Part shown: positions 39,354-60,163 of the stretch, piece by piece
Layout of the letters: every line of letters starts with the position of its first letter
Position numbering within the stretch: position 1 is the first letter of the stretch
Assembly (NCBI RefSeq): GCF_035917275.1
Contig: NZ_CP108508.1
Location: 2,604,001-2,668,000 of the forward strand
DNA from: Streptomyces sp. NBC_01237
GTDB taxonomy: Bacteria; Actinomycetota; Actinomycetes; Streptomycetales; Streptomycetaceae
Length of the DNA: 64,000 nt
Direction of reading: 5' to 3'
Notes under the pieces: model-generated
Databases searched by the model: none
Told to the model about the DNA's origin: nothing
What the model saw: only the letters and a program-made list of their open reading frames with translations
Translations under genes and position numbers: made by a program

Positions 39354-40946
39354 ATGCCCCACGTGCCCAGCCCCGCCGCCGAGCCAGCACCCTCGGGCGA
39401 GCACCACGAACCCACGGCCCCGACCGGCTCCGTCGGCGTACACGGAATCACCAAGCGATTCGGCGCGGTACGGGCTCTCGGTGGAGTCACCCTCGACTTC
39501 CCCGCGGGCCGGGTAACCGCCCTGATGGGCGAGAACGGCGCGGGAAAGTCCACGCTGCTGAAGATCCTCACCGGCGACCATCCGCCGACCGAGGGGTACA
39601 TATCCATCGACGGCGAACGCACCGGGTTCGGTTCACCCGCCGCCGCGCGCTCGGCGGGCATCCGGATCATCCCGCAGGAGCCGGAGGTCATTCCGCATGT
39701 CTCCGTCGCCGAGAACGTCTACGCGGGAGCCCTCCCGCGCAAGCGCGGCCGGGTGCTGGACCGGGCGGAGCTGGAGCGCCGGATCGAGGCGGACCTGGAG
39801 CGGCTCGGCTTCGCCGACATCCTCGACCCCCGCCTCCTCGGCTCCCAGCTCACCCCCGCGCAGCGCCAACTGGTGGAGATCATGCGGGCCCTGACCGGTG
39901 AGGTACGGGCGAAGGTGATCGCGTTCGACGAACCCACCTCGTCCCTCGCCGAGCACGAGACGGAAGCGCTCTTCGCCCTCATCCGGCGCCTTCGCGCCGA
40001 GGGCATCGCCATCGTCTACGTCTCCCACCGCATGCGGGAGATCTTCCAACTGGCCGACCGGATCGCCGTGTTGCGCGACGGTGTACTGGTCGGGGTCCAG
40101 GCGGCGCACGCGACGAGCGAGGGCGAACTCGTCCGTCTCATGGTCGGCCGGGACCTGTCCAGCATGTTCGTCCGCGAACGGGTGGCCACCGACCGGCTGG
40201 TGCTGGACATCAGGGACGTCACGACCGACGACGTGCGGGACATCTCGCTGAAGGTCCACGCCGGGGAGATCGTCGGGCTCGCAGGGCTCATCGGGGCCGG
40301 GCGCTCCGAACTCGCCCTCGCCCTCGCCGGTGACCGTCCGGTCCGCAGCGGCAGCATCACACTGGACGGCACGCTCCTGCGCGGTGGACGTCCCGGCGAG
40401 GTGATCCGGGCCGGTCTCGGACTCGCGCCCGAGGAGCGCAAGGCCCAGGCGCTCTTCCTCCAGCGGTCCGTCAGGGACAACATCTCCCTCGTGGTGCTGA
40501 ACCGGTTGCGTCGCTTCCGTTTCGTTCGGCGGTCCGCCGAGCGTGAGCTGGCCCAGCGGTACACGGACCGGCTCCGGGTGCGCACGCCGTCGACCGGCCA
40601 CGCCGTGGGCACGCTGTCGGGCGGCAACCAGCAGAAGGTCGTACTGGCACGGTGGCTGGCCCGTCGACCGAAGGTGCTGATCCTGGACGAACCGACGCGC
40701 GGTGTCGATGTCGGTGCCAAGTCGGAGATCTACCGGATCATCGCCGAACTGGCCGAGGACGGCGTCGCCCTGCTGGTGATCTCCTCCGAACTCCCCGAAC
40801 TGCTCGGCCTCGCGGACCGAGTCGTCGTCATGCAGGGCGGCCGGATCACCGGCGAACTCAGCCACGACGACGCCGACGAAGAGTCCGTCCTCACCCTCGC
40901 CATGGCCGACGACATCGTCGGCGCCGCCCCGGGAGCCACGTCATGA
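39354..40946 (+). CDS. CUT2 sugar ABC transporter ATP-binding protein (AraG-like)
   Basis: A 530-residue protein with two fused ATPase domains. The first (about 25-260) has Walker A GENGAGKST and Walker B VIAFDEPTSSL. The second (about 275-515) has LIGAGRSE in place of a full Walker A, as is normal for CUT2, plus LSGGNQQK and VLILDEPTRGVD. The first signature motif is altered (QLTPAQRQLVEI), as often in this family. ATG 39354 follows GAGGTGA. The stop overlaps the next gene as ATGA. It powers uptake by the AraF/AraH-like partners. Confidence 0.92.
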   Translation: MPHVPSPAAEPAPSGEHHEPTAPTGSVGVHGITKRFGAVRALGGVTLDFPAGRVTALMGENGAGKSTLLKILTGDHPPTEGYISIDGERTGFGSPAAARSAGIRIIPQEPEVIPHVSVAENVYAGALPRKRGRVLDRAELERRIEADLERLGFADILDPRLLGSQLTPAQRQLVEIMRALTGEVRAKVIAFDEPTSSLAEHETEALFALIRRLRAEGIAIVYVSHRMREIFQLADRIAVLRDGVLVGVQAAHATSEGELVRLMVGRDLSSMFVRERVATDRLVLDIRDVTTDDVRDISLKVHAGEIVGLAGLIGAGRSELALALAGDRPVRSGSITLDGTLLRGGRPGEVIRAGLGLAPEERKAQALFLQRSVRDNISLVVLNRLRRFRFVRRSAERELAQRYTDRLRVRTPSTGHAVGTLSGGNQQKVVLARWLARRPKVLILDEPTRGVDVGAKSEIYRIIAELAEDGVALLVISSELPELLGLADRVVVMQGGRITGELSHDDADEESVLTLAMADDIVGAAPGATS

Positions 40947-41980
40947 CCGTCACCAGCACTCCGTCCCCCGCCGTACAGGAACCCGCCGGGGACGGCCGCA
41001 AGTCCGCCGGGCCACGGCTCCTCGCGGGCCTCGGTGGCCAGAACATCAGCCTCATCGGCGCCCTCGTCGCCGTGCTGGCCCTGTTCGGTGCCCTGAACGA
41101 GAACTATCTGAGCCTGTCCAACATGCAGGTGATCGCCGAGGCGGCGACCATCACCGGGCTGCTCGCGATCGTCCAGACCGTGGTCATCATCTGCGGCGGA
41201 CTGGACATATCCGTGGGCTCGCAGGTCGGTGTCGCCTCCGTGGTGAGCGCGATGGCCTTCACCGGTCTCGGGTCCAACGCGTACCTCGGCATGGCCGCCG
41301 CGGTGGGCGTCGGCGTCCTGGTCGGGCTGCTCAACGGTCTGATCATCGTCTACGGCCGGGTCAACCCCACCATCGCCACCCTGGCGGGACTCGCCGCCTA
41401 CAAGGGCCTCGCCCAACTGCTGTCCAACGGCCGGGCCCAGGGCTACGTCCTCAACAACGAGGTGTTCGTCTTCCTGGGCCGCGGCAAGATCGCCGGCCTG
41501 CCGGTCATGGTCTGGATCCTGATCGTCGTCGCCCTCACCGTGCACGTGCTCCTCACGTACACGGACATCGGCCGCAACATCTACGCCATCGGCGGCAACG
41601 ACACCGCGGCCCGCCTCGCGGGCATCAACATCAACAAGTACCTCGTCTCCGTCTACGTCCTCATCGGCGTGGTCGCCGCCGTCGCCGGCATCCTGCTCAC
41701 CGCCCGCACCGGCTCCGGTCAGCCCACCTCCGGCAGCGAGGGCCTGGAACTCAAGGCCATCACCGCCGCAGCACTGGGCGGCTGCGCCCTGAAGGGCGGC
41801 AAGGGCGGCATCGGCGGCACCCTGCTGGCGGTGGCCCTGCTCGGCGCCCTGGAGAACGGCCTCACCGTCGAGGGCATCAACACGTTCTGGCAGAACGTCG
41901 CCCAGGGCGCCCTGCTCGTGGTGGCCGTCGTCATCCAACAGCGCCGCAGCGGCGCCCGGGCCGTCGGACTGCCCCACTGA
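40943..41980 (+). CDS. CUT2 sugar ABC transporter permease (AraH-like)
   Basis: A 345-residue permease with about ten hydrophobic segments and the CUT2 motifs GLDISVGSQVGVASVVSAM, VNPTIATLAGLAAYKGLAQL and YAIGGNDTAARLAGININ. It overlaps the ATPase stop by four bases (ATGA), so the two are translationally coupled. It completes an AraFGH-like importer expected to bring in arabinose or galactose released from arabinogalactan. The pathway region ends here; a convergent MFS gene follows. Confidence 0.92.
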   Translation: MTVTSTPSPAVQEPAGDGRKSAGPRLLAGLGGQNISLIGALVAVLALFGALNENYLSLSNMQVIAEAATITGLLAIVQTVVIICGGLDISVGSQVGVASVVSAMAFTGLGSNAYLGMAAAVGVGVLVGLLNGLIIVYGRVNPTIATLAGLAAYKGLAQLLSNGRAQGYVLNNEVFVFLGRGKIAGLPVMVWILIVVALTVHVLLTYTDIGRNIYAIGGNDTAARLAGININKYLVSVYVLIGVVAAVAGILLTARTGSGQPTSGSEGLELKAITAAALGGCALKGGKGGIGGTLLAVALLGALENGLTVEGINTFWQNVAQGALLVVAVVIQQRRSGARAVGLPH

Positions 41981-42096
41981 CCGGCTCCGCCCGCGCCACC
42001 GGGGACGGCGTCCGCCGCGGCACGTCCTCGTGCGTGGTCCGCCTCCGGTGACCCTCTGTCAGCAGGGCGGTCCCAGCGGTCCTGGGGGCTGTCCCG

Positions 42097-43305
42097 TCAT
42101 CCCTGGCGGGGCAGCTCTTGGACGATCGAGCTGCGCGCCATGAAGGGCCGGCAGGTCAGGCCGGTGGCAAGGAGGAGGGCGGCGAGGAGCAGCCAGCCGG
42201 GGAGGCCCAGGGCCAGCGGGAGCGCGCTCATGACGGCTGGTGACGCTCCCTCGGCCAGTCCGTGGCCCAGGCCGAAGACTCCGGCGTACTGGCCTTGCGC
42301 GGCGGCGGGGGCGAGGCCGAAGGAGTACTCGGCCGAGGCGGCGCTGTGCCAGATCTCACCGAGGGTGTAGGCGATCGTTCCTGCCGCGAGGAGGAGGACG
42401 GCCGGCCCGCTCGGGGGCTTCTCGGCCAGCGCCATCAGGACGAGGCCCGCGGCGAGCGCCATGCCCGCCCAGCGCATCGCGGTTCCCGCGGACCGTACGT
42501 CGCCGACGCTCCGGCTGAAACGGACCTGGAGGACGACCACCAGGATCGTGTTGAGGACGAGCATCGCGGAGATCGTCCACCGGGGGGCCGAGGTGTGGTC
42601 CGCGATCCACAGTGGAAGCAGGAAGGTGGGCACCGTGAAGTGCAGGGACATCACCGCGTTGATCGCCGTCGCGGTCAGGTAGGTGCGATCGCGCAGAGCG
42701 GCCCAGCCACGGCTCGGGCTGCCGCCGTCGTCGACGGTGAAGGGCGGCAGCCAGAAGAGGATCAGACCGGAGACCAGGTACGTCAGGGACCGGCCGATCA
42801 TGACGGTGAGGAAGGCCTCCCTGGTGTCCAGTTGGATGGCGAAGCCCGCTGCCACGGCGCCGAGTGCGATCGCGAGGTTGCCCACCGACCGCAGATAGCC
42901 GCGGAAGACGGCGGGCGTGGGCCCGCCGAAGCCGCGGACGAGCGGGGCCAGGGTGGCCCAGCTCGCCGCGATCACCGCGCCGGACAGCAGGGAGACCAGG
43001 AAGTAGGCCCAGAAGGTGTGCACCAGCAACAGCCCGGTGTTCACCACGGTCCCGCAGGCCGCGACCGCCATCTGGACCCGCTTCGCCCCCCAGCGGTCCG
43101 CCGAGCGGCCGACGTACACCCCCGCGCCGAGACCCGCCAGGGCCCCGGCGAACAGACCGGCGGCGACCTGGGAGGCGGGCAGACCGACGATCCGCGTGAA
43201 GAAGAGCGCACCTGCCGCCAAGGACAGCCCCGTACCGAAGCTGTGCACGAAGGACGTCAGGGCGACCACGCGCTGGCCCCTGCCGACCGGCAGCAGGGCG
43301 GTCAT
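42097..43305 (-). CDS. MFS exporter, last gene of the NRPS-like operon
   Basis: A 402-residue transporter with 12 predicted helices; LAGLGAGVYVGRSADRWGAK is the loop 2-3 motif. The start ATG overlaps the TGA of the ATP-grasp gene as TGATG, with GTG 43314 as an alternative. Position at the end of the biosynthetic operon suggests product export or self-resistance. Similar carriers occur in small peptide clusters, but the cargo cannot be read from sequence. Confidence 0.83.
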   Translation of the reverse strand: MTALLPVGRGQRVVALTSFVHSFGTGLSLAAGALFFTRIVGLPASQVAAGLFAGALAGLGAGVYVGRSADRWGAKRVQMAVAACGTVVNTGLLLVHTFWAYFLVSLLSGAVIAASWATLAPLVRGFGGPTPAVFRGYLRSVGNLAIALGAVAAGFAIQLDTREAFLTVMIGRSLTYLVSGLILFWLPPFTVDDGGSPSRGWAALRDRTYLTATAINAVMSLHFTVPTFLLPLWIADHTSAPRWTISAMLVLNTILVVVLQVRFSRSVGDVRSAGTAMRWAGMALAAGLVLMALAEKPPSGPAVLLLAAGTIAYTLGEIWHSAASAEYSFGLAPAAAQGQYAGVFGLGHGLAEGASPAVMSALPLALGLPGWLLLAALLLATGLTCRPFMARSSIVQELPRQG

Positions 43306-44630
43306 CACCGCCACAAGGTGTCTCCGAAATCGGCGTCGGGACGCCAGTCCCGCTGGAATTCACGCCTTCCCCGGGTGGTCAGGCCGTCGGGGAGCACCCA
43401 CAGGCGCTCGTCGAACCACCGCCTGACCTCCTCGAAGCGCCCGGTGAGCTGCTCGACCGACGCCGCCACGACCATGACCTGTCCGATCCGCTGGCTGGTG
43501 TGGACCGCACCGGCCGCGAAGTGCGTGCCGACGGGGTGCTCGATCCGGGCGAACCGCACCTGCTCCAGTGCCACCAGTTCCTCCGGCGTCGGGCAGCCGA
43601 GCAGCGTCCCCGCACGCCCCGGCAGGTAGCAGCCCCCGAAGACGTCCGGGCTGACCTTGGCATCGATCTCGGGGCGGCGCCCGAGCGCGATCTGGACGGC
43701 GCACTCGGCGATGTTCACCCCGAACTTCGCCTGGACCTGCTCATGGACCAGGGCGCCCCCGCGACGGGCGGCGCACTCGCCGAACGTCAGCGTGCCCGAG
43801 GGGCCGTCGTGGAAGAGCTCCATGTGGAACGCCCCGTCCCGCAGGCCGAGCGCGTCGAGCGCGGGCCCCACCAGGCCCCGCGCCTTCTCGTAGACCCGGC
43901 TCTCCTCGCTCGGGTCGAAGTGCCGCAGCCACAGGGGCCGCCCGCTCTCGATGGCGGTGAGGCAGGGATCGCCGTAGGCGCCCACGGCGAGGAAGAGCAA
44001 CTCACCCTCGAAGACCAGGCCGTCGACGAACCACTCGTCCCCCACGACGTGTTCCTCCAGGACGAAGGTGCGCTGTCCTGTCCTGTTCCTGCGGTACTCC
44101 TCGCTCCTCGCCCGGAGCTCCCCGATGCTCCTGACCGACGTGGTGAGGGCCGTGGCGGCACCGGCCACCGGCTTCAGCACGGCGGGCGCGAAGGGCAGTT
44201 CCGGAAGGCCGGAGACCGAGTAGACGTCCTCGATCACCACGCACCGGGCGGCCGGCAGCCCGGCCCCGTGCACCGCGGCCTTCTGAAGGGACTTGTCCCG
44301 GAAACGTACCGCCGTCTCCGGATCGAGCCCCGGCACACCCAGCTGACGGGCCACCATGCCCGCGGTGACCACGGAGTACTCGTCGGAGGTGTGTACGGCG
44401 TCGAAGTCGCCGGCGCCGAGACCGGCCCGGCGCAGCCCCATCAGCACGGCCTCGGCACTGGACTGGTCGTCGACCCTGAGAACGGTGAGCTCGGGCGGGA
44501 CGTTCATGAGCCCGTCGTCCCAACCGCTCGCGCCACAGACGACCACGGCGTCCACGCCCAGCCGGACGCACGCGTCCAGGGTGTACCGGTCCAGACCCAC
44601 GATCAGCAGGCGCGGTCGGGTCTCAGCCAT
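43305..44630 (-). CDS. ATP-grasp ligase
   Basis: A 441-residue ATP-grasp enzyme. The N-terminal pre-ATP-grasp domain (about 1-100) begins RLLIVGLDRYTLDACVRLG. RFRDKSLQKAAVHGAGLPAA and APAVLKPVAGAAT form the ATP-binding core, EEHVVGDEWFVDG the adenine-contacting strand, and FHMELFHDG with FGECAARRGGALVHE the Mg2+ site. This is the carbamoyl-phosphate-synthase-like group that includes amino-acid and dipeptide ligases such as BacD and DdaF. It probably joins a carboxylate, activated as acyl phosphate, to an amine. GGAGG precedes ATG 44630, and the start overlaps the A-domain gene by 8 bases. It may do the bond-forming step that a condensation domain would normally do. Confidence 0.85.
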   Translation of the reverse strand: MAETRPRLLIVGLDRYTLDACVRLGVDAVVVCGASGWDDGLMNVPPELTVLRVDDQSSAEAVLMGLRRAGLGAGDFDAVHTSDEYSVVTAGMVARQLGVPGLDPETAVRFRDKSLQKAAVHGAGLPAARCVVIEDVYSVSGLPELPFAPAVLKPVAGAATALTTSVRSIGELRARSEEYRRNRTGQRTFVLEEHVVGDEWFVDGLVFEGELLFLAVGAYGDPCLTAIESGRPLWLRHFDPSEESRVYEKARGLVGPALDALGLRDGAFHMELFHDGPSGTLTFGECAARRGGALVHEQVQAKFGVNIAECAVQIALGRRPEIDAKVSPDVFGGCYLPGRAGTLLGCPTPEELVALEQVRFARIEHPVGTHFAAGAVHTSQRIGQVMVVAASVEQLTGRFEEVRRWFDERLWVLPDGLTTRGRREFQRDWRPDADFGDTLWR

Positions 44631-46155
44631 GGTTGTTCCTCCTGTCGTGCGTGCGTCCCCAGTCCTCCAGGGCGGCACGGTCCAACTTTCCGTTCGGCGT
44701 CAGCGGCAGGGCGTCGACCACCACCGCGCGGGCGGGCACCAGGTACTCGGGGAGCGCCGCGGCCAGCGCCTGGCGCACGGCGAGCGGATCCCCGGACGCG
44801 ACCGCGGCCGCACTGTCCGGCCGCGTCGTGTAGGCGAGCACCATCGACTGGCAGCCGCCGTCCGCCTCGCGGACCGGGACCGCGGCGCAGTTGAGGACAC
44901 CCGGCACCGAGCGGCCCGCGTGCTCCACCTCGGCGGGTTCGACGCGGTACCCCCGGACCTTCAACTGCCGGTCCCTGCGGCCGAGGTAGCGCAGCAGCCC
45001 TTCGCCGTCCACGCGCCCCTGGTCCCCGGTCCCGTACACCCGGGAGGGGACGCCGTCGATCGTGACGGTACGGAACCTCTCCCCGGTCAGCTCGTCCTGC
45101 CCCAGGTAGCCTGCGGCCAGCGCCTCGCCCGCCACGCAGATCTCGCCCTCCTGGCCGGGGAGGCACACCTTGTCGTCGGCCATCACGTGGATCCGTGTTC
45201 CCGGCGCGGCCGTGCCGAGCGGAACGCCCTCGGGCTCGTCGCAGTCCTGCGGGCGGACCCGGTGGGCGGAGACGAACATGCAGCACTCGACGGGTCCGTA
45301 GCAGTTCACCAGTGGGGTCTGCGGATGGGCCAGGACGAACCTGGCCGCGTGGGCCCGGGACATCGCCTCGCCGCTGACGAAGACCGACCGCAGGCCGGCG
45401 AAGCAGCCCGGATCCACATCGACGAACAGGTTGAACAGGGCGGTGGGCAGATGCACCGCGTTCGCGCCGTCCTCGTCGACGGCCCTGCGCAGGGACTCCG
45501 GGAGGAACATCCGGTCGCCCTGGAGGAGGCAGGTCCCGCCCGCCACCAGGGTTCCCCACACCTCCAGGGCGTACATGTCCCAGGCCGCGTTCGACACCTG
45601 CGGCATGACGTGGTCGGCACCGAAGGACACCGGCCCCTCCCCGCGGAACAGACGGAGCGCCGCCCGGTGCGGCAGGACCACCGCCTTGGGCACACCGGTG
45701 GTTCCCGAGGTGAAGATGACCATCGCGGGCGAGGCGCCGTCGGCGCCCCGCTCCACGGGCGCGGCCGCCCGGTCGGCGGACTCCCGCAGCGGCTCATCGG
45801 GCGGGGTCAGGACGGGGAATCCGTACGCCGGCGAATCCGCGACGGCCAGCGGCGCCCGCAGCCGCCCGACCAGCGATTCCAGCCGCTGGTCGGGCCAGTC
45901 CGGATCGAGTACGGAGTACGCCGCCCCGCACTTGAGCAGTGCGAGCTGGGTGACGGCCAGGCGCGCCGACCGGGGGAGGACGACGGGAACCAGGCTCCCG
46001 GGGCCGATGCCGTGGCCGGAGAGGACCGAGGCGAAGTGGTCGGCCGCCCGGTCGAGGGTGCGGTAGCTGATGGCCACGCCGTCCTCGACGAGCGCCGGAT
46101 GGTCGGGCCTCTCCCGTGCGCGACGGGTCACCGCCGCATGCAGGGTGCTGTCCAC
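44623..46155 (-). CDS. Stand-alone amino-acid adenylation domain
   Basis: A 510-residue ANL enzyme with all NRPS A-domain cores: FTSGTTGVPKAVVLPH (A3), CYGPVECC (A5), YGTGDQGR (A7), GRRDRQLKVRGYRVEPAEVE (A8) and LTPNGKLDR with the catalytic Lys (A10). Aligned by eye to GrsA, the specificity positions read D-M-L-H-F-S-C-M-F-K. The leading Asp fits an alpha-amino acid, but I do not recognise the code. No condensation, carrier or thioesterase part is fused; the carrier is the separate 87-residue protein two genes upstream. GTG 46155 directly follows the previous TGA, with GAGGGGG as ribosome site. Confidence 0.9.
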   Translation of the reverse strand: MDSTLHAAVTRRARERPDHPALVEDGVAISYRTLDRAADHFASVLSGHGIGPGSLVPVVLPRSARLAVTQLALLKCGAAYSVLDPDWPDQRLESLVGRLRAPLAVADSPAYGFPVLTPPDEPLRESADRAAAPVERGADGASPAMVIFTSGTTGVPKAVVLPHRAALRLFRGEGPVSFGADHVMPQVSNAAWDMYALEVWGTLVAGGTCLLQGDRMFLPESLRRAVDEDGANAVHLPTALFNLFVDVDPGCFAGLRSVFVSGEAMSRAHAARFVLAHPQTPLVNCYGPVECCMFVSAHRVRPQDCDEPEGVPLGTAAPGTRIHVMADDKVCLPGQEGEICVAGEALAAGYLGQDELTGERFRTVTIDGVPSRVYGTGDQGRVDGEGLLRYLGRRDRQLKVRGYRVEPAEVEHAGRSVPGVLNCAAVPVREADGGCQSMVLAYTTRPDSAAAVASGDPLAVRQALAAALPEYLVPARAVVVDALPLTPNGKLDRAALEDWGRTHDRRNNHG

Positions 46156-47967
46156 TCAGGCCCCCTCGGGCGGCAGGACGGCGAATGGACAACGCAGCAG
46201 GGACAGCGCGAGGTCCTGGACGCCGAAGACGGTGAAGTGGTGTTCCTGCGGTGCGGCCGTCCCATCGAGCCGCACCTCGAAGACGACGCTCCGGCCGGGC
46301 TCGACCCGGTGCACCGGTGGGGACACGGTGGCGGCGAGCCCCCAGGGGACGAACACGCCCACCTGCACGGGCTCCGGCCGCGACGACGCGACCGTGACCT
46401 CGATCCGGAGCACCGCTCCGGCGCACACCGTCGCCTCCGCGTGCGCGCCGAGCCGTGCCCCGCCCTCCATCGCGTAGCCGACCGGTCCGCAGCTCAGACA
46501 CACGTGCGCGGTCGTGAGGGGGACCCGGGCGGTGAACCCCCGGCGCGGGTATTCCCAAGCGGTCCGCCCGCACAGCACGCAGGGGGTGGCCGTCGCGTCC
46601 GACGGCGAGACCGTGCTCCGGTCACCGAAGAAGCGGGGGAACTCCGCGAGCCCGTCGTCGGGGCGCTCGGCTATCCGTACGGCCATCGCCCGATCCAGTG
46701 AACGAGCCTCGTCGATGAGCGAGTCGAGGAACTTCGCCCGCTCCTCCCCCAGCCCCATGACCGGCCGGACGGCCGTCGTCTCGATCCGTTCCGCCAGCCG
46801 CTCCAGCGGTGCCCGCAAGGGGTGCGCTGCGGGCAGCATGCCGGTCATGAGGAAGCCGCGGGCCCGCGAGCCGAGATCACGCACGAGCCCCGCCGATATG
46901 TCCCGGTCCGGCGCCGGCCGTCGCGCATCGCGATAGGCCGAACTCCCCAACCCCACCTGGATGAACGAGGGGTAGGGGTGCATGCTCCCCAGGCTCGCGT
47001 TCAGCACCCGGGCGGTGCTCCCCCCGCTCCCCGCCGAGTCCAGCCAGACGAGGTTCTCCACCCGGGCCGACTGGTGCATGGACAGCCCGGCGACCACCGC
47101 CTGGGCCGGGCCGTCGACGCCGTTCAGGAGCAGTTGGTAGCGGGGGGCGTAGGAGGCGAGATCCGCCAGGGCGCCGCTGTCACAGCCGCTGAGTACGAGC
47201 TCCGCGGTGCGGACCCGGTGGGCGGGGATCAGCTTGTCCTCGGGCTTGTAGCAGCCCCGCCCGTACGAGCAGGTGGGGCCGGGCCGTTCGGGGCCGGCGG
47301 CCGGGCTGAGCCCGCACACGGTGTGGGCGCCGAGGTTGATGCTGTCCTCGGTGCCGTGACCGCTGACCATCACGCGCTGCCAGACCCGCTCCTCCGCGAT
47401 GCGGCCGAGCTGCACGCCGCCCAGCGACCGCGAGTCGTAGTACGTCGCCGAAGTGGCCACCGGCTCGATGTCGAGATCGGTGAAAAGACCCGTCCCGCCC
47501 TCGCCGGCCACGTCCCCGTACTGCTTGGCGATCATCCAGGTGATCGAGTGGAGGTCGCGGCCGGTCAACAGGAAGACATCCCTGCCCCGCCGGTAGGCGT
47601 CCACCAGGACCGGTCCGATGACCTCCATACGCAGGTCCTCGTAGCGGCCGAGGACGATCAACGAGCCATCGCCCAGGGGCGGTTCCCCGTCCGTCCACTC
47701 CCCGGCCAGCGGGCGGGCGAACGCCCGGACCGCCTCCGGAAGGTCCCCCAGGACCACGCCCGCCGCACACACGGGCGGCTCCCGCAGAGCGGCGTAGAGC
47801 CCCTCCGCGAGGGCGAGCGAAGCCTTGAGGTCGACGCGCTCGCCGATCCACACCGGCACGGCGGTCCCCCGCTCGCCCCGCCCCCGGGCCGCCTGGAACT
47901 CGGTGACCGAGACCTCGAAGTCCGCGGCGCCGACCACCGCACGGAACACACCGCGCACGCCCGTCAC
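46156..47967 (-). CDS. Caspase-like (CHAT/gingipain-type) protein with zinc ribbon
   Basis: A 603-residue protein not assigned to a known biosynthetic family. A caspase-like dyad is visible: His204 in VMVSGHGTEDSINLG and Cys262 in AELVLSGCDSGALADL, each after a predicted core strand as in clan CD peptidases. The N-terminal 130 residues are unassigned. A pair of CxxC motifs (Cys463/466 and Cys490/493) forms a probable zinc ribbon, and the C-terminal 100 residues look like a beta-sandwich. There is no signal peptide. GTG 47967 overlaps the carrier-protein stop as GTGA. Its place between carrier and A domain suggests that it acts on the assembled intermediate, for example in cleavage, release or acyl transfer. 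That role is inference. Confidence 0.75.
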   Translation of the reverse strand: MTGVRGVFRAVVGAADFEVSVTEFQAARGRGERGTAVPVWIGERVDLKASLALAEGLYAALREPPVCAAGVVLGDLPEAVRAFARPLAGEWTDGEPPLGDGSLIVLGRYEDLRMEVIGPVLVDAYRRGRDVFLLTGRDLHSITWMIAKQYGDVAGEGGTGLFTDLDIEPVATSATYYDSRSLGGVQLGRIAEERVWQRVMVSGHGTEDSINLGAHTVCGLSPAAGPERPGPTCSYGRGCYKPEDKLIPAHRVRTAELVLSGCDSGALADLASYAPRYQLLLNGVDGPAQAVVAGLSMHQSARVENLVWLDSAGSGGSTARVLNASLGSMHPYPSFIQVGLGSSAYRDARRPAPDRDISAGLVRDLGSRARGFLMTGMLPAAHPLRAPLERLAERIETTAVRPVMGLGEERAKFLDSLIDEARSLDRAMAVRIAERPDDGLAEFPRFFGDRSTVSPSDATATPCVLCGRTAWEYPRRGFTARVPLTTAHVCLSCGPVGYAMEGGARLGAHAEATVCAGAVLRIEVTVASSRPEPVQVGVFVPWGLAATVSPPVHRVEPGRSVVFEVRLDGTAAPQEHHFTVFGVQDLALSLLRCPFAVLPPEGA

Positions 47968-48227
47968 CCCGCCGCCCCGATCTTCAGCATCGCGGCGGCA
48001 AGGGCGTCGACCGTACGGTGCTCGAAGATCGCCCGGAGGGGCAGGTCGCACCCGGCCTCGTCCCCGATCCTCGACGCGGCGCGCACCGCCCCCAGCGAAT
48101 GGCCGCCGAGTTCGAAGAAGTCCTGATCGGACTCGACCCGATCAAGCCCCAGAACGTCCTCCCAGACCCCCGTGATGTGCTCGATCAACTCCGGACGCGA
48201 GAACCGGTCCTTCTCGATGACGCTCAC
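47964..48227 (-). CDS. Peptidyl/acyl carrier protein
   Basis: An 87-residue phosphopantetheine carrier. DFFELGGHSLGAVRA carries the attachment Ser44, and a four-helix pattern spans the rest; LGGHSL is the NRPS-type sequence. It overlaps both neighbours by four bases (GTGA). It probably holds the aminoacyl group loaded by the stand-alone adenylation enzyme. No phosphopantetheinyl transferase is in the window, so one must come from elsewhere. Confidence 0.93.
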   Translation of the reverse strand: MSVIEKDRFSRPELIEHITGVWEDVLGLDRVESDQDFFELGGHSLGAVRAASRIGDEAGCDLPLRAIFEHRTVDALAAAMLKIGAAG

Positions 48228-49093
48228 CCCGGCAGGAAGGTGAAGTCCTCGCCGACTTCACGGGAGAGGACGAAGAACTTCTTGGCACGCTCGGCGATGT
48301 CGAGCAGTTCCGGATCGCCGGACTCCCGGGTGATGTCGATGAGCCAGTCCCAGGAAGCCCCGATCGGCACTTCCTCGGTGAAGTGGATCCGGCCCAGCAG
48401 GAAGGCGATGTCCTTGATGTTGTGCCGGGAGACCACGGTGCTCAGGGCGCGCAGCCGCTCCGGCAACTCCGGGGAGGACGGCTTGCGCTCCACCGGCGTG
48501 GCCCGCAGGCCGGGCTCGTACGACTCGGGGCGGGCGAAGATGTCGGACGGCTTGAAGCCGGGCCCCGCCGCGAAGTCGAGACAGAGCGACCAACGGCTGC
48601 GCGAGGACATGTTCATGCCCGCATGGATCTGGGCGGCGTCCAGGAACCACACCTCGCCCTTGCGCATGTGGAAGACCATGTCCTCGTCGGAGTTGACCGC
48701 GTGCTCGTTGTCCTCCAGGAAGAGGATCACCCGGAAGAACTCCTGCACGTCACCGGCCTCGATGAAGTCCCGGTGCGGAATGATCGAGAACTCGACGACG
48801 TTGCGCCCTCGCACCATCGTCATGCGCTCCGGATTGAACCGGCTGGTCAGCACCTCACGCAGATACGGAACCTCGTCGAGGAGCGCGGTGGCCTGCCCGG
48901 GGCGCTGCTCGTGCCCGTACCAGAAACCGTCGTGCTGGTCCCCGGAGGCGTTCCACAGGTTGAGGTTCAGCCAGGTGCCCGTGGTGAAGGCCTGGTACGG
49001 CTCCTGCAGAGCCGACATGGCCGAGAGCCGGGCGATGTCCTTGGCGAGGCGCTCGTCGTCGAACGGGATGCGGCCGAGTATCACTGAGGCCAT
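48224..49093 (-). CDS. Fe(II)/2-oxoglutarate proline-hydroxylase-type oxygenase
   Basis: A 289-residue enzyme that, from memory, aligns over its full length with Streptomyces proline 3-hydroxylase. Shared blocks are VPYLREVLTSRF, IIPHRDFIE, HMRKGEVWFLDAA, SLCLDFA, and a C-terminal DWLIDI. Iron ligands are His107, Asp109 and His157. Arg167 is the likely 2-oxoglutarate contact, close to the numbers in the known enzyme. It should hydroxylate L-proline or a related amino acid, but the position (3 or 4) cannot be fixed by eye. The ATG has a distant GGAAGGA. Its stop overlaps the carrier-protein start as GTGA. Confidence 0.85.
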   Translation of the reverse strand: MASVILGRIPFDDERLAKDIARLSAMSALQEPYQAFTTGTWLNLNLWNASGDQHDGFWYGHEQRPGQATALLDEVPYLREVLTSRFNPERMTMVRGRNVVEFSIIPHRDFIEAGDVQEFFRVILFLEDNEHAVNSDEDMVFHMRKGEVWFLDAAQIHAGMNMSSRSRWSLCLDFAAGPGFKPSDIFARPESYEPGLRATPVERKPSSPELPERLRALSTVVSRHNIKDIAFLLGRIHFTEEVPIGASWDWLIDITRESGDPELLDIAERAKKFFVLSREVGEDFTFLPG

Positions 49094-49144
49094 GGGTGGG
49101 ACGTGTCCTTCCTGGCGAATGTCGTCCGAATGCCGGGCGGGGGT

Positions 49145-50146
49145 TCAGAGCTCGAAACCCGCGGGGAAGGGGTCGTCGGGAGACAGGAAGTACTGTGCGG
49201 TGCCGGTGATCCAGGCCCGTCCGGTGACCGTCGGCACGACGGCACTGCGGCCCGCGACGGTCGCCTCCTCGACGAGACGGCCGGTGAACTTCGATCCGAT
49301 GAAGGACTCGTTGACGAAATCCGCCCCGATCTCCAGCTCGCCGCGGGCGTGCAGCTGCGCCATCCTCGCGCTGGTGCCGGTGCCGCACGGTGAGCGGTCG
49401 AACCATCCGGGGTAGATGGACATGGCGTGGCGTGAGTGCTCCGCATCGGACCCCGGCGCGGCGAAGTACACGTGCCGAACGCCCCGGATCCGGGAGTCCT
49501 CGGGGTGCACCGGCTCATCGGCGTCGTTGATCGCCTGCATCGTGGCCAGCCCCGCGGCCGTGATCTGCTCCTTGGCCTTCCGGTCGAACGGCAGCCCGTA
49601 GTCGTCGAGTTGCACAATCGCGTAGAAGTTGCCGCCGTAGGCCAGGTCGTAGCGGACGGTACCGAACCCGGGGACCTCAAGCTCGGCGTCCAGTCTCTCG
49701 GAGAACGCCGGCACGTTCCTGAAGGTGACGTGCCGTGCGACCCCGTCCGATACCGCCACATCGACGACGACCAGACCGGCCGGGGTCTCCAGGCGCACGG
49801 TCGTGACCGGCTCGGTCACGGTGACCATGCCCGTCTCCACCAGAACGGTCGCGACCCCGATCGTGCCGTGCCCGCACATCGGGAGATAGCCGGACACCTC
49901 GATGAACAGCACACCCCAGTCCGCGTCGGGCCGGGTCGGCGGCTGGAGAATCGCTCCGCTCATCGACGCGTGGCCCCTGGGCTCGGTCACCAGCAGGGTC
50001 CTGATGTGGTCGAGGTTCTCACGGAAGTGGATCCGGCGTTCCGCCATCGTCGCTCCGGGGATCACCCCGATCCCCCCAGTGATCACACGGGTGGGCATGC
50101 CTTCGGTGTGGGAGTCCACCGCATGGAAGATTCGATTGGTACGCAC
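49145..50146 (-). CDS. Proline racemase / hydroxyproline 2-epimerase family protein
   Basis: A 333-residue two-base epimerase. Both catalytic cysteines are present at Cys91 (MCGHGTIG) and Cys254 (SPCGTGTSA), so it is an epimerase rather than a trans-3-hydroxyproline dehydratase, which has Thr at the second site. HAVDSHTEGMPTRVITGGIG is the family N-terminus. I chose GTG 50146 because GAGAGG lies 6 bases upstream and it starts one base after the PhzF stop; the longer start would be a TTG. Beside a proline hydroxylase it should invert C-alpha of proline or hydroxyproline, giving a D-configured or cis/trans-switched building block. Confidence 0.88.
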   Translation of the reverse strand: MRTNRIFHAVDSHTEGMPTRVITGGIGVIPGATMAERRIHFRENLDHIRTLLVTEPRGHASMSGAILQPPTRPDADWGVLFIEVSGYLPMCGHGTIGVATVLVETGMVTVTEPVTTVRLETPAGLVVVDVAVSDGVARHVTFRNVPAFSERLDAELEVPGFGTVRYDLAYGGNFYAIVQLDDYGLPFDRKAKEQITAAGLATMQAINDADEPVHPEDSRIRGVRHVYFAAPGSDAEHSRHAMSIYPGWFDRSPCGTGTSARMAQLHARGELEIGADFVNESFIGSKFTGRLVEEATVAGRSAVVPTVTGRAWITGTAQYFLSPDDPFPAGFEL

Positions 50147-50147
50147 G

Positions 50148-50987
50148 TCATCCCTCTCGGCTCTGGTCAAGGTCGTCGTCGGACAGGTGGATCGTCCCGT
50201 TCATGTACGGTCTGGCGGCGCCGGACAGGGCGACCCGGTCGCCGTCGAGGCCGCAGTCGAGGCTGATCGTGAGCGTCCGGCCCAGCCGCGGCGAGAACTG
50301 GTGGGCGCGCATCCGGGGCTTCCCCAGCCGCTGTGCCCAGTACGGGACGAGCGCGCAGTGCGCCGACCCGGTGATCGGGTCTTCCGGGATGGACAGCTTC
50401 GGCCCGAAGAACCGCGAGCAGAAGTCCGCCTCGGCGCCCGGCGCGGTGATGACCACGCCACGCAGGTCCAGCGCGGCGAGTGCGACGAGGTCCGGGACCA
50501 CCGAGCGGACCTGTGCCTCGCTGTCGTAGACCGCGACATAGTCCATGGACCGGTAGACCGCCGAGGGCGCGACCGCGCCCAGCCCCCGCAGCAGGTCCAC
50601 CGGCGGTTCCACCGGCGAGAGTTCGAGGGCGGGGAACGTCAGGCCGAACACGTCCCCGTGCCGGGCGACCACGAGCGGTCCACTGGCCGAGTGGAACGTC
50701 ACCTCGTCCCAGCCCGGCTCCAGATGCGTCAGTACGACGTACGCCGCGCCCAAGGTGGCGTGTCCGCACAGGTCCACCTCGGTGGCCGGGGTGAACCAGC
50801 GCAGGTCGTAGGCGTCCCCGTTCCTGACGATGAAGGCCGTTTCCGGAAGGTTGTTCTCCAGGGCGATGGCCTGCATGACGGGCTCGGGAAGCCACGCTTC
50901 GAGCGGGCAGACGGCCGCCGGGTTTCCCCACAGAACACGGTCGGTGAAGGCGTCGACCTGGAAGATCGGAATACTGATCGGGTTCAC
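50148..50987 (-). CDS. PhzF-family isomerase
   Basis: A 279-residue protein with the two-lobe diaminopimelate-epimerase fold. The general acid/base Glu49 is in NNLPETAFIV, and CGHATLGAAYVVL and DPITGSAHCALVPYWAQRLG are the family hallmark loops. PhzF proteins move protons or double bonds in small amino or hydroxy acids. The C-terminal lobe has the same overall fold as the next gene's epimerase, so two related isomerases stand side by side. GTG 50987 overlaps the upstream stop as GTGA. The substrate is unknown and may be a hydroxyproline-derived or cyclic enamine intermediate. Confidence 0.87.
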   Translation of the reverse strand: MNPISIPIFQVDAFTDRVLWGNPAAVCPLEAWLPEPVMQAIALENNLPETAFIVRNGDAYDLRWFTPATEVDLCGHATLGAAYVVLTHLEPGWDEVTFHSASGPLVVARHGDVFGLTFPALELSPVEPPVDLLRGLGAVAPSAVYRSMDYVAVYDSEAQVRSVVPDLVALAALDLRGVVITAPGAEADFCSRFFGPKLSIPEDPITGSAHCALVPYWAQRLGKPRMRAHQFSPRLGRTLTISLDCGLDGDRVALSGAARPYMNGTIHLSDDDLDQSREG

Positions 50988-52084
50988 ACGCCCAACTTCC
51001 GCTTGGCCTCGGCGAAGAAGAGGATGTGCTGGTAGTCCTTCGCCTTCTCGTCGTAGTCGGTGTACTGGTTGGTGAATCGCAGCAGCCGCTCCTGGACCTG
51101 TTCCGCGGGTTCGCTGTGGATGCGTCCTTCGATCGCCTGGATCTCGCCCAGGAATTCGGCGAGCACGGCCGGCAGACCCGGGCGGAGGTGGATCAGCCCG
51201 TTGTGCAGCCGGATGCCGTCCGCGGCGATCAGGTAGTTGAAGAGCAATTGGGACGCGACCGCGTCGTAGTTGGGCCTGGGTATCCCCTCGACCGCGTAGC
51301 GGAGCAGCCGTTCGGAGAGGACGTACTCATACGTGAGCCGCGCGCCACGCTCGGGCAGCGCGGAGTCATGGAGGCAGGCGAGCATCGCGGACACGTCGAC
51401 CCGCAGCTCCTCCAGTCCGGCCAGTGGCTTCAGCTTCTTCACCGGGAGGAAGTCGGGAATCGGCATGTCGCCCTGCCGGTGGTGGTACTCGTGCAGCCGT
51501 ACCCACCAGGACGACGCCTGCGCGATGTCTTCCGGCCCTGCGGCTTCGACCAGCGGGAACGATCCCTCCGCCATGACGTTGTGCACCAGGAGCCGGGTCA
51601 GGCGCAGATGCCGTTCGACGAACTTGTCGATGAAATAGAAGACCAGGTCCCCGCTCTCCTGGCGGCCGTCGATGTGGTTCTCGGGGAAGAGCGCCACGAC
51701 GGGCCTGGCCTCGAAGCCTTTCGACATCCGCTCGATCGTCACCGGCATGGTCGGGCTTGGGTATCCGGTGTCCAGATGCGTGTCGGTGGGCGACGTCCGG
51801 TAGGACAGGAAGTCCAGGGACAGCGTCGGGAAGTAGGACGCGTCGAACAGCGAGAAGATGTGGTTGTCCACCCGGGTGTTGATGTGTGCCTTGGTCCGCA
51901 GCAGCCGGGGATCCTCGGCGAACGTCAGGACGTCCTCCGCGAACACCTGGACGATGGGCACCTTCCGGAGCACGGGCGATGCGAGCAGTCCCCGGGCCAG
52001 TCGCTTGAGGGACGCTTCGTCCCGCCGTTCGTCGCGCCGGACCGAGCCGCGCAGTACGTTGACCGCGTCAATGACGTCGTTCAC
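50984..52084 (-). CDS. DUF6421-like protein of unknown function
   Basis: A 366-residue soluble protein. From memory it resembles Streptomyces DUF6421 proteins in the C-terminal two thirds: RLHEYHHRQGDMPIPDF, LAGLEELRVDVSAML, and NYDAVASQLLFNYLIAADGI. His/Glu-rich motifs (HEYHH, NHIDG, THLDTG) could bind a metal, but no known catalytic pattern is secure. There is no signal peptide or membrane segment. GTG 52084 has GGAAGGAGG upstream. It is 25 bases from the oxidase gene and overlaps phzF-like by four bases, so it belongs to the same operon. No function is claimed. Confidence 0.7.
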   Translation of the reverse strand: MNDVIDAVNVLRGSVRRDERRDEASLKRLARGLLASPVLRKVPIVQVFAEDVLTFAEDPRLLRTKAHINTRVDNHIFSLFDASYFPTLSLDFLSYRTSPTDTHLDTGYPSPTMPVTIERMSKGFEARPVVALFPENHIDGRQESGDLVFYFIDKFVERHLRLTRLLVHNVMAEGSFPLVEAAGPEDIAQASSWWVRLHEYHHRQGDMPIPDFLPVKKLKPLAGLEELRVDVSAMLACLHDSALPERGARLTYEYVLSERLLRYAVEGIPRPNYDAVASQLLFNYLIAADGIRLHNGLIHLRPGLPAVLAEFLGEIQAIEGRIHSEPAEQVQERLLRFTNQYTDYDEKAKDYQHILFFAEAKRKLGV

Positions 52085-52109
52085 TGGCTCTGTGCCTCCT
52101 TCCCCCGGA

Positions 52110-52895
52110 TCAGCCCGCGCATATCTGATCGGCGAAGTCGTCGAGCGCATGGGCCCAGTGGGCCGCGTAGTCCGTGGCGAGCAGCATCAACTCTTCGGCG
52201 TCCTCTTCGCTCTCGACCAGGGCGGTCATGCCCGTCTCCTCGTCGCTGACGGACTTGGCATGACTCGTCTCGGCCTTGATGTGCGCGTCGATCCACACCA
52301 GGGCGTCGGATGCCGCGAAGAGCTTCTGCCCGTCGACCCGCACCTTGCCGTACATGCGCCGGAACGCGACGGCGATGTCCAACGCCGTGGCCTCCACGAC
52401 CCGTAGCTGTACCGCCGCGCCCAGTCGGTGATCGGCCAGCGACTCCATCGCCCGCAGCAGCTTGGCGACGCCCGCGGGAAGTTCCCGCGTCACTCCCTCG
52501 CCGGCCGCTTCCGCCAGCGGCCCGACGATCGAGTCCGCCCACCACAGGTAGTGGACCCCTGCCGCTCCGGCGGGCGCCACCGCACTGAAGTCGTCGGCCA
52601 GGTTGTCCAGGTCGTCGCCGATGACGCGGTAGGCCGTCTGGAAGGCCGCCAGCGCCTCCCGCCCCGGAGCCTCCTGCGACGCGAAGTGCCGCGCCGCCGC
52701 GCCGAGCCCCGAGATCGTCGTGAACATGAAGGTCCTGGTCATCACCTCCCACTGCCGAGCCACGGCCAGCGCGTCCTCGACCGCGACCGCGTCAACAGCC
52801 CCCGCTGCCGCGAAGAACCGGTTCACCGGCCTTACCAGCCCCGCCGCTTGCACCACCGCGGTCACCCGCTCGTCAAGCTGTTCATCAATAGCCAC
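52110..52895 (-). CDS. Haem-oxygenase-like (TenA/HDO-type) putative di-iron oxidase
   Basis: A 261-residue all-helical protein, first gene of the operon. A run of acidic and His residues fits the haem-oxygenase-like di-iron oxidase superfamily: [13 protein letters not shown] and [21 protein letters not shown], giving E...H-x3-E-x2-H, with [13 protein letters not shown] near the end. Members oxidise amino acids or amines by desaturation, C-C cleavage or N-oxygenation, so the call is by pattern, not by a close homologue. GTG 52895 is chosen because GAGGGGG precedes it and the promoter's predicted start site lies inside the longer open frame. Confidence 0.65.
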
Positions 52896-52931
52896 GACAC
52901 GCCCCCTCAGTAGTGCAATTTCACATGTCAC

Positions 52932-52961
52932 AGGCTATGTATGACTCAGGCGGACCGTCAA
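52932..52961 (-). promoter_or_regulatory. Promoter of the NRPS-like operon
   Basis: TTGACG (52961-52956), an 18-base spacer and TAGCCT (52937-52932) match a vegetative Streptomyces promoter. The start site would be near 52925, about 30 bases before GTG 52895. It is the only clear promoter for the ten leftward genes. Confidence 0.65.
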
Positions 52962-53031
52962 CGGCTTTCGGGAAGCCGGGACACCCTCAATCCCCTTCGC
53001 CCCGACCGGACTTCGACGAAGCCGCCACCGG

Positions 53032-53319
53032 TCACCCCCAGCCGATCCGCACCGTATCCCCGCCCCCGCCGCCCGCCAGGACCTCGACGCGGGTACCCGT
53101 ATCGGGATCGATGAGGGTCCGCCCCTGCCTGTCGCAGCCCATTCCGACCGGTGCGGCCTCGCGGTTGCCCTCGGCGCGGCATGACGCGTCGGGGTACGCG
53201 GTCGTCCCACCGGTGCGCCTTACGGCGATCCCGGCGCCGTCCCGTCGTTCCACCGGAATCAGTTGGACCGTGCGCCGCCCCCGTGCGGGCAGACGGGCGA
53301 CCCGGGCGTCGCGGGTCAC
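53032..53319 (-). CDS. Possible small hypothetical protein, perhaps a gene remnant
   Basis: A 95-residue frame with GTG start and high GC at third positions. The sequence (IAVRRTGGTTAYPDASCRAE, then GVxxDRQGRTLIDPDTGTRV-like) is not low-complexity, but I recognise no family. The frame stays open upstream without a start that looks better, so it may be the 3' end of a decayed gene. The rest of 52962-53572 shows nothing I can name. Confidence 0.3.
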   Translation of the reverse strand: MTRDARVARLPARGRRTVQLIPVERRDGAGIAVRRTGGTTAYPDASCRAEGNREAAPVGMGCDRQGRTLIDPDTGTRVEVLAGGGGGDTVRIGWG

Positions 53320-53572
53320 GCGACGGGCTTCCAGGAGTGCCGGCCGAGGTGCTGCGGGGCGCGCCCGCGATGTCGCCCATGCCGTCCCGGTCGTTGACGT
53401 ACTGACGAGGGGGTGCCGACAAGGGCGCCGATATCCGGCCCGACGTGGGACGCGTCACACACAGGGGCCGCGGGATCATCGTCGTGGCCCCACACCCGGG
53501 TCCCACCTGAAATCGCAGGTCAAGAAGGCGAGGGCCGGGTGGTGCGGGCCAGGGGCGCCCGCCCCGCCTCGC

Positions 53573-53609
53573 AAAGGAGAGGCGCGCACCCCACGCGAAA
53601 CGCCTCTCC
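53573..53609 (-). terminator. Hairpin downstream of tRNA-Met
   Basis: GGAGAGGCG (53576-53584) pairs with CGCCTCTCC (53601-53609) across a 16-base loop. On the leftward strand the stem is followed by a short TTT. It lies 47 bases past the tRNA 3' end. Confidence 0.6.
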
Positions 53610-53655
53610 AGTCGCGTTTCCCCAGGTCAGAACGATTCTGCCTGGGGACGCTCGG

Positions 53656-53729
53656 TGGGGCGGGTGGGACTCGAACCCACGGCCGACGGATTATGAGTCC
53701 GCTGCTCTAACCGGCTGAGCTACCGCCCC
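53656..53729 (-). tRNA. tRNA-Met (CAU)
   Basis: A 74-nt cloverleaf: acceptor GGGGCGG/CCGCCCC, D-arm GCTC...GAGC, anticodon stem GCGGA/TCCGT (4 pairs plus end wobble) with loop CTCATAA, T-loop GTTCGAGTC and discriminator A. The anticodon is CAU. Elongator Met is the usual call; Ile2, with a lysidine-modified C34, cannot be excluded by eye. CCA is not encoded. It borders the biosynthetic operon region. Confidence 0.88.
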
Positions 53730-53916
53730 GTTTCGGCGTGGCGCGTACATGTGTGCGCACCGTCTGCCGCAGCATAGCCGGTCATACGATCTCTCGCTTC
53801 GGATGGTCGACTTCGCCTGATCATGAGGACCGCGCTTTGTGCTGCCCGGTTCCAGGTGACGCGAAGGAGACCCGAAAGTGTCACTTCCGGACCCCGCGGC
53901 ACCAGGTGCGGGCACA

Positions 53917-53940
53917 CGAAAAAGGACCCCGAGGGGTCCT
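53917..53940 (-). terminator. Intrinsic terminator after tRNA-Asn genes
   Basis: An 8-bp stem, AGGACCCC/GGGGTCCT (53923-53930 and 53933-53940), with a 2-base loop gap, followed on the leftward strand by TTTTT. This is a textbook terminator 12 bases past the tRNA-Asn. Confidence 0.85.
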
Positions 53941-53951
53941 CTTCCGTTCCG

Positions 53952-54024
53952 CTCCCCCGACTGGACTCGAACCAGTAACCCTCCGGTTAACAGCCGAATG
54001 CTCTGCCAATTGAGCTACAGGGGA
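53952..54024 (-). tRNA. tRNA-Asn (GUU), copy 1
   Basis: A 73-nt cloverleaf with acceptor TCCCCTG/CGGGGGA, discriminator G, anticodon loop CTGTTAA (GUU) and T-arm CTGGTTCGAGTCCAG. CCA is not encoded. It differs from the adjacent copy mainly in the anticodon stem (TTCGG/CCGGA here). Confidence 0.93.
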
Positions 54025-54029
54025 TCGCG

Positions 54030-54102
54030 CTCCCCCGACTGGACTCGAACCAGTAACCTGCCGGTTAACAGCCGGCTGCTCTGCCAATTGAGCTACAGGG
54101 GA
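54030..54102 (-). tRNA. tRNA-Asn (GUU), copy 2
   Basis: A 73-nt cloverleaf, five bases upstream of copy 1 in the same transcript direction. It has the same acceptor, D and T arms, with anticodon stem GCCGG/CCGGC around CTGTTAA (GUU). The two genes look like a tandem duplication with changes limited to the anticodon arm. Confidence 0.93.
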
Positions 54103-54283
54103 TTGCTGCGTTGCCTCGAATCGTACCTACCTGGCGGCTGCCGGGCGGCGCGCGTTCGCTGCGACACATACATTAGCGCAAGCAGGGGGGTGCTCCGCCA
54201 ATCGGTATCGCCCCGGGTGATCTCGGGTGCGCGCGGGTAGGCGGCCTGCACACGTCGCACGGAGCGAAGGAAGGGTGGCAGCC

Positions 54284-54589: not shown

Positions 54590-54662
54590 GGATCCGGGTC
54601 CGGGACCGGTGCCGGTCGGCGCCGGTTGCGGGAAAGGTCCCGGGGTGCGGCAGAATCTGTGT

Positions 54663-60154: not shown

Positions 60155-60163
60155 GTGGCTTCC

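Follow-up and report, generated by a model that had tools for sequence, protein, structure and literature searches.

Closest Described Systems

In the polyoxin pathway, polyoximic acid, an azetidine amino acid, is made from L-isoleucine by PolF and PolE together (PMC12614342). In that report PolF, a DUF6202 protein, acts on L-Ile or L-Val to give azetidine amino acids, along with desaturated and hydroxylated side products, while PolE, a DUF6421 protein, desaturates L-Ile. It was the sole paper naming DUF6202 or DUF6421 among the open PubMed Central (PMC) papers searched, which is the scope of all literature searches in this study. A DUF6202 and DUF6421 gene pair also heads an operon of ten genes on the minus strand of Streptomyces sp. 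NBC_01237, at 42097–52895 of a stretch of 64,000 nucleotides (contig NZ_CP108508.1, positions 2,604,001 to 2,668,000), and this whole stretch is called the window here. Compared with the polyoxin pathway, the window operon has no nucleoside genes, as seen from Pfam searches of the ten genes and a scan of eleven flanking genes, but it adds genes for a hydroxylase, an epimerase, a PhzF-family protein, an adenylation (A) domain, a peptidyl carrier protein (PCP) and a BlsK-like protein.

The BlsK-family protein, the ATP-grasp ligase and the major facilitator superfamily (MFS) exporter recall the clusters of the blasticidin S and arginomycin type. However, cytosylglucuronate synthase, BlsE and arginine aminomutase are absent from the ten window genes, and the operon has an A domain and a PCP, which had no match in ten blasticidin-type stretches (L021, L023, L025, L027–L031, L093, L107; L and G numbers denote the loci and genomes compared). 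The A domain and PCP are shared with non-ribosomal peptide synthetases (NRPSs), but unlike in a canonical NRPS, neither a condensation (C) nor a thioesterase (TE) domain was found by Pfam among the ten operon proteins; the related locus L059 has a C-PCP protein. In dipeptide operons of the bacilysin type, an ATP-grasp L-amino acid ligase and an MFS exporter give a small peptide, and the window operon differs from these in warhead chemistry and in its A, PCP and BlsK-like genes. For the Pur6 aminonucleoside synthetase of puromycin, which belongs to a different cluster, a gingipain-like fold and an aminoacyl-tRNA donor have been proposed (PMC11641026); its likeness to the window BlsK-like protein is drawn from these descriptions.

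The PolF/PolE-Like Pair of the Operon

We consider it rather probable that the operon serves the production and export of a small peptide with a modified azetidine amino acid, by the route proposed below. The first gene (52110–52895; PF19705, E 1.5e-96), like all operon genes on the minus strand, encodes a PolF-like HDO of the DUF6202 family, a candidate azetidine synthase. By phmmer, this protein matches PolF (9prr) at E 2.3e-80, with 257 residues aligned and one short gap, and it also matches SaPolF (9j27) and SzPolF (9j28). It is 52–57% identical to 10 other DUF6202 proteins, and the equivalent of the substrate-contacting Thr62 of PolF, a position counted by hand, is invariant in the window protein and these ten. 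The second gene (50984–52084, alternative ATG start at 52150; PF19985, E 1.1e-10) encodes a DUF6421 protein, a candidate PolE-like Fe/pterin desaturase. Its residues H220, E221, Y222, H223 and H224 together with E247/E248 conform to the HE/DXXHX(21-23)E motif published for PolE (PMC12614342), and it is 61–64% identical to seven other DUF6421 proteins encoded beside PolF genes.

These two genes are best read as an azetidine-forming pair related to PolF and PolE. This relationship points to an azetidine, formed from Ile or Val, as the most likely cyclic amino acid in place of a hydroxyproline, and hydroxyproline as the sole cyclic residue was rejected on the same homology. The initial annotation, made from the DNA letters, had named both families rightly as an HDO-type oxidase and a DUF6421-like protein but missed their relationship to PolF and PolE; the hydroxylated proline-type residue that it proposed is replaced here by an azetidine.

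Layout and Conservation of the Ten-Gene Unit

In the order of transcription, the DUF6202 and DUF6421 genes are followed by genes for PhzF, a proline racemase family protein, a proline-3-hydroxylase family protein, the PCP, a 603-residue protein, the A domain, the ATP-grasp ligase and the MFS protein. Each family assignment was checked by Pfam, and third-position GC is 0.86–0.93 across all ten genes; both bear out the ten leftward genes and families first described for this locus. Overlaps of 4–8 bases, once claimed for most junctions, do exist but occur at four of the nine read from the sequence, namely PolE/PhzF, hydroxylase/PCP and PCP/BlsK-like (4 bases each) and A/ATP-grasp (8 bases). The BlsK-like and A genes abut, and the ATP-grasp and MFS genes overlap by 1 base (ATG start) or 10 bases (GTG start). 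Gaps of 1 base (PhzF/epimerase), about 25 bases (PolF/PolE) and 51 bases (epimerase/hydroxylase, the largest in the operon) make up the rest, the start codons behind all these figures being our choice. The hexamers TTGACG-N18-TAGCCT are present where a promoter had been suggested, but the promoter itself is unsupported: a scan of 41900–53700, which covers the sigma-70 type only, gave 0 sites, and by blastn the DNA upstream of 52909 is not conserved in the genome G937.

The ten-gene unit is real and discrete. G937, from a distantly related actinomycete, is one of three genomes with DUF6202 among the 341 of the family to which G633, the source of L059, belongs. It carries the ten genes in unchanged order, and their proteins are 67–94% identical to those of the window. 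When positions 36001–56000 of the window were compared with 33 kb of G937 by blastn, a single high-scoring segment pair was obtained from 52909 to 42137 (83.7% over 10,796 columns) and nothing else matched, which marks the limits of the conserved unit at 42137–52909 on the minus strand. The dN/dS values between the two are 0.10–0.39 for all ten genes, as expected under purifying selection. For comparison, window positions 54600–63990, to the right of the operon, are 65–74% identical to G937 in pieces of more than 1 kb. Since the operon is more alike in G937 than the genes to its right, its transfer between lineages is likely. The ten genes, described as one operon at the outset, are thus conserved as one unit in G937. 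Pfam and G937 also support the view of a dedicated biosynthetic operon in which an A domain and a PCP occur without C or TE domains and with an ATP-grasp ligase and an exporter. Among the papers listed by the literature searches, none describes the ten-gene combination, in keeping with the earlier statement that no described pathway with it was known.

In one contig scan, for which 11 DUF6202 proteins were aligned, 21 loci were obtained, two of which resemble the window operon. Actinomadura oligospora (L060) has eight genes in order, from PolF to the A domain, with 51–88% identity. Streptosporangium violaceochromogenes (L059) has orthologues of PolF, PolE, PhzF, the epimerase, the hydroxylase and the BlsK-like protein with 54–87% identity; beside its BlsK-like gene lies a PCP fused to a condensation domain (L059:14893–20232), and its A domain shares only 30% identity with that of the window. 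In total, 32 stretches with PolF were fetched, six of them for a second time, so that 26 loci are distinct in their PolF sequence, and the window is the 27th. The six-gene set shared with L059 is present in 4 of these 27 and the full ten genes in 2. Some of the 26 are close relatives (e.g., L051 and L058) and hence not independent, the stretches of L052, L061, L063–L065, L067 and L079 span only 10.9–18.9 kb, so that absences there are weak, and L110, a duplicate of L056/L074 by coordinates, was left uncounted. DUF6202 is rare around the window, being found in 8 of 392 and 5 of 297 genomes (G000 and G391 are in both sets), and in a further set in 2 of 374, namely G633 again and one genome whose match coordinates are the same as those of G494.

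Candidate Tailoring Enzymes

The proline-3-hydroxylase-type 2-oxoglutarate (2OG)/Fe oxygenase (48224–49093; PF05373, Pro_3_hydrox_C, E 1.8e-35) has its best solved match in 1e5r (E 4.6e-71), labelled 'proline oxidase' in the match list, which we take to be proline 3-hydroxylase. An HxD...H motif provides the metal ligands in 2OG/Fe enzymes of this type. The window protein has this ligand set and the C-terminal domain, and its PHRD together with a later His and Arg is conserved in 7 of 7 aligned proteins. The epimerase gene (49145–50146, alternative TTG start at 50170; PF05544, E 1.2e-130) belongs to the two-Cys proline racemase/hydroxyproline epimerase family, and both catalytic cysteines of the Cys-Cys type described in PMC4364671 are found in MCGHG and SPCGTG in 6 of 6 aligned proteins (four operons and two paralogues). 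For the PhzF-family isomerase (50148–50987; PF02567, E 3.9e-47; nearest solved structure 1s7j, E 5.2e-64), we infer a role in the pathway.

Activity of such enzymes on the four-membered ring has been reported. A cis-3-proline hydroxylase is said to hydroxylate azetidine-2-carboxylate (PMC6958525), and an archaeal proline racemase acts weakly on the same compound, at 0.16% of the proline rate (PMC4364671). The latter figure is a caution, as four-membered rings are not what this racemase is built for. Paralogues in the L059 and L060 genomes share 74% and 68% identity with the window epimerase, and the neighbours of these paralogues, judged by eye only, resemble hydroxyproline-catabolism genes; the window epimerase may therefore be a recruit that has changed little.

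Genes of the proline-3-hydroxylase type lie within the fetched stretch in 10 of the 27 distinct PolF loci, window counted, and occur there in four settings: the window type (4 loci), the mutually alike L051, L057, L058 and L065, then L052, and Kutzneria sp. CA-103260 (L069), in which the gene, together with a PhzF gene, is some 7 kb from PolF. As a background, such a gene was found anywhere in 7 of 121 Streptomyces genomes, and three of these (G000, G005, G073) also carry PolF, with the hydroxylase-type gene close to it. L051, L057, L058 and L065 are NRPS clusters in which PolF is followed at once by the hydroxylase-type gene, with no PolE match, and they probably represent another azetidine peptide family. 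The PhzF and hydroxylase-type genes of L069 are on the strand opposite to its PolF-PolE-NRPS cluster.

BlsK-Family Protein

The seventh gene (46156–47967) encodes the 603-residue BlsK-family protein, a candidate Fe-S aminoacyltransferase. It has no Pfam match, and no Pfam or PDB sequence match points to a protease; it was assigned from the blsK slot of its family, the invariant cysteines and a tree. The name 'caspase-like' that it had been given draws on GHG and SGC motifs only; the caspase-type His is replaced by Asn in 3 of 14 family members, and membership of the BlsK family takes the place of that name. An anti-phage defence reading of the protein was dropped, there being no PADLOC match.

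Relatives were found in 19 of 295 Streptomyces genomes, and 14 of 17 fetched stretches, many of them blasticidin-type clusters, have a near full-length member (L035 and L037 carry a partial one only, L036 none, and G252 was outside the sample). The BlsE motif CxxxCxMC with GGEP, taken from PMC3715490, is present in 9 of 9 radical S-adenosylmethionine genes of one orthologous group. On a Kitasatospora plasmid, genes named blsE, blsF and blsG by PGAP are followed by an aminotransferase, a carboxylate-amine ligase and an MFS gene, and then by a BlsK-family gene (annotated as hypothetical), a methyltransferase and a nucleoside deoxyribosyltransferase. From the letter order of the named neighbours, not from a BlsK sequence, we infer that the family occupies the blsK slot. 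BlsK is titled a [3Fe-4S], tRNA-dependent aminoacyltransferase in the reference list of PMC10691278, and a search for papers on BlsK or caspase-like aminoacyltransferases gave nothing on BlsK beyond this one reference. The window protein is about 37–45% identical to blasticidin-type members (about 40% over most of its length), and because it belongs to the BlsK family it is probably an aminoacyl-transfer catalyst.

Eight cysteines, capable of holding a predicted Fe-S cluster, are invariant in 14 of 14 family rows, and when the distant L092 is added, six of the eight are kept in 11 of 11 rows; the short L037, at a contig end, was excluded from this list and L026 was missed by the gene caller. 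In a tree rooted at midpoint, the window, G937 and L060 group with full support, and L059 adjoins them, though weakly supported (81/42). A blasticidin/arginomycin group and an NRPS-associated group are separate from these four. An AlphaFold model built from 3 sequences has a pLDDT of 48, with residues 148–360 under 50. Foldseek with this model gave query TM-scores of at most 0.16 among the 50 matches listed, many Ig-like or MSP-like, a hint of a C-terminal beta-sandwich in the model. An ATP-grasp gene accompanies the BlsK family in 20 of 22 loci, window counted (that of L034 is only weakly similar), the loci without one being L059 and L092.

Other settings of the family were also seen. BlsK-family genes of L022, L032/L109 and L092 are beside NRPS and TauD-type genes, not nucleoside genes, and L092, a very distant member, adjoins a HAD-family gene and an NRPS gene. 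The arginomycin-like plasmid cluster L108 has beta-methylarginine genes, blsE, blsF and a BlsK-family gene with its adjoining AMP-binding gene. A weak match (29.5%, 21% of the query) lies among small hypothetical genes of a Bombilactobacillus plasmid (L094:6355–6744).

Carrier, Ligase and Exporter Genes

The BlsK-like gene is flanked by the PCP and A genes in the window, G937 and L060, and by C-PCP and A genes in L059. Outside the window type, the exceptions to the pattern of the blasticidin-type stretches are L108 with its AMP-binding gene, L033, L022, L026 and L032 with both A and PCP matches, and L092 with an A match. The free-standing PCP (47964–48227; PF00550, E 2.2e-16) carries a GGHS site, which is kept in all four operons aligned. 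For the stand-alone A domain (44623–46155; PF00501, E 3.9e-63), a pocket of D-M-L-H-F-S-C-M-F-K was read by hand, with positions placed from the motif anchors of GrsA and not from a structure alignment; the fifth position is the only one at which the orthologues of G937 and L060 depart from it. This code has no clear resemblance to proline or isoleucine codes and a weak one to serine codes, from which no specificity is drawn. The loading of an epimerised cyclic residue by this A domain, as the initial annotation implied, thus stays a conjecture. The ATP-grasp amino acid ligase (43305–44630) matches the L-amino acid ligase 4wd3 (phmmer, E 2e-21), with Pfam ATP-grasp_4 and LAL_C2 below the cut-off, and the MFS exporter (42097–43305, alternative GTG start at 43314) matches PF07690 at E 8.8e-11.

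Proposed Pathway and Alternatives

The reactions, their order and the product are proposed from the gene content, homologies, motifs and conservation of the unit described above. Desaturation of L-Ile by the PolE-like enzyme would yield 3,4-dehydro-Ile, and closure of the four-membered ring by the PolF-like diiron enzyme would give 3-ethylidene-azetidine-2-carboxylate (from Ile) or the 3-methylene form (from Val). Enzymes of cyclic-imino-acid families would then tailor the azetidine by proline-3-hydroxylase-type hydroxylation and by two-Cys epimerisation at C2, and a PhzF-type isomerisation may shift its double bond. The lone A domain would activate another amino acid and load it on the free PCP, the BlsK-family protein would move the aminoacyl group to an amine in place of a condensation domain, the ATP-grasp ligase would form a further amide bond and the MFS protein would export the product. 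Because the A and PCP genes flank the BlsK-like gene here but are unmatched in the ten blasticidin-type stretches, we tentatively put forward a narrower version, itself rather doubtful, in which the BlsK-like protein is a carrier-protein-dependent Fe-S aminoacyltransferase fed by the stand-alone A domain and PCP, acting in place of a condensation domain and capping a hydroxylated, epimerised azetidine.

Several observations weigh against the proposed pathway. The E value of 2e-80 to PolF and the 52–57% identity among DUF6202 proteins do not fix the product of the window enzyme, and PolF itself also desaturates and hydroxylates. BlsK is tRNA-dependent by title, so the A domain and PCP might have another role; no clear prediction follows from the A-domain code, and the BlsK-like model is too poor to bear on the fold. 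The last two genes also vary between related operons. L059 has no ATP-grasp match in its stretch or in the next 20 kb (L089), and its MFS protein is only distantly like that of the window, while the downstream ATP-grasp gene of L060 (in L087) is 26% identical to that of the window. On the other strand of L060, 6–8 kb upstream (L060:2231–4377), there is a weak match to ATP-grasp (206 residues, 32% identity), and after it comes one to the window MFS (382 residues, 40% identity, E 2e-71); this pair is possibly the displaced last two operon genes.

The amino acid itself could differ from the one proposed. If PolE and PolF made the azetidine while the hydroxylase, epimerase and PhzF protein modified L-proline, the peptide would carry an azetidine and a 3-hydroxyproline-type residue, as the 1e5r match of the hydroxylase and the catabolic-looking setting of the close epimerase paralogues would allow. 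We regard such a peptide as unlikely: hydroxylase-type genes recur near PolF in several architectures, and because they do so in L051, L057, L058, L065 and L052 with no epimerase or PhzF match found, an azetidine or its precursor is suggested as the substrate. It is less likely still that the PolF-like enzyme forms no ring and only desaturates or hydroxylates Ile/Val, giving a peptide with an acyclic unsaturated or hydroxylated amino acid. The side products reported for PolF (PMC12614342) and the 52–57% identity, a figure measured against other DUF6202 proteins and not against PolF, speak for this outcome, but the long, nearly gapless alignment to PolF does not, and a ring would suit the proline-racemase and proline-hydroxylase families, whose substrates are cyclic imino acids.

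The role of the BlsK-like protein may also be read in other ways. It is quite possible, if short of probable, that it uses aminoacyl-tRNA, perhaps to add a temporary self-protecting mask, and that A-PCP activates a different residue. The title of the BlsK paper (cited in PMC10691278) and the leucylation proposed as protection in the blasticidin pathway (PMC5572114) favour a tRNA donor, whereas PCP (or C-PCP) and A flank the gene in all four window-type operons, and no tRNA gene was found in six related stretches, though chromosomal tRNAs would suffice. The GHG and SGC motifs resemble those of clan CD peptidases, and a peptidase that trims or releases the product would accord with them and with the gingipain-like model of Pur6, another aminoacyl-coupling enzyme (PMC11641026). 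This role is highly improbable, given the Asn in place of His in some members, the lack of a peptidase family match and the position of the family in the slot of a published aminoacyltransferase.

Genomic Setting

In G019, a genome of the same species, neither the BlsK-like protein nor DUF6202 was found. On one contig, G019 matches the window as far as 25584 and resumes at 53579, and between these borders it has 16.9 kb of its own DNA (C33 87797–104653) against 28.0 kb in the window. The variable region of the window (25584–53579) ends beside a tRNA-Met (53654–53729), and copies of the tRNA-Met end lie in G019 at C33 96995–97096 (85%) and at the far border at 104520–104548 (29 bases, 100%). 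Because the G019 insert carries these copies, an integration hotspot beside tRNA-Met is suggested; the window has no second copy besides the tRNA itself. The tRNA genes at 53654–54102 were rejected as a part of the cluster, as this stretch is 98% identical in G019 and no tRNA was present in six stretches of other operons. The eleven flanking genes scanned are mostly for sugar use and transport. Those to the left of the operon (16045–42000) include ThuA/GH99/CBM6, GSDH/PKD and GH35 beta-galactosidase genes, a LacI regulator, ABC permeases and sugar-binding proteins, and an AMP-binding/carboxyltransferase pair is at 21202–23995.

Significance of the Operon

Drug chemistry prizes azetidine amino acids, to which the PolF route was described as late as 2025. 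The window operon would be a second, self-contained azetidine pathway, with three candidate azetidine-tailoring enzymes, and the ten-gene unit is small enough for whole transfer into a laboratory host. It is also a test case for the use of carrier proteins by enzymes of the BlsK type; such use would join the tRNA-dependent chemistry of peptides to that of NRPSs. If the carrier-dependent reading is true, carrier thioesters would be turned into peptide bonds here by a new route, next to those of the C and TE domains.

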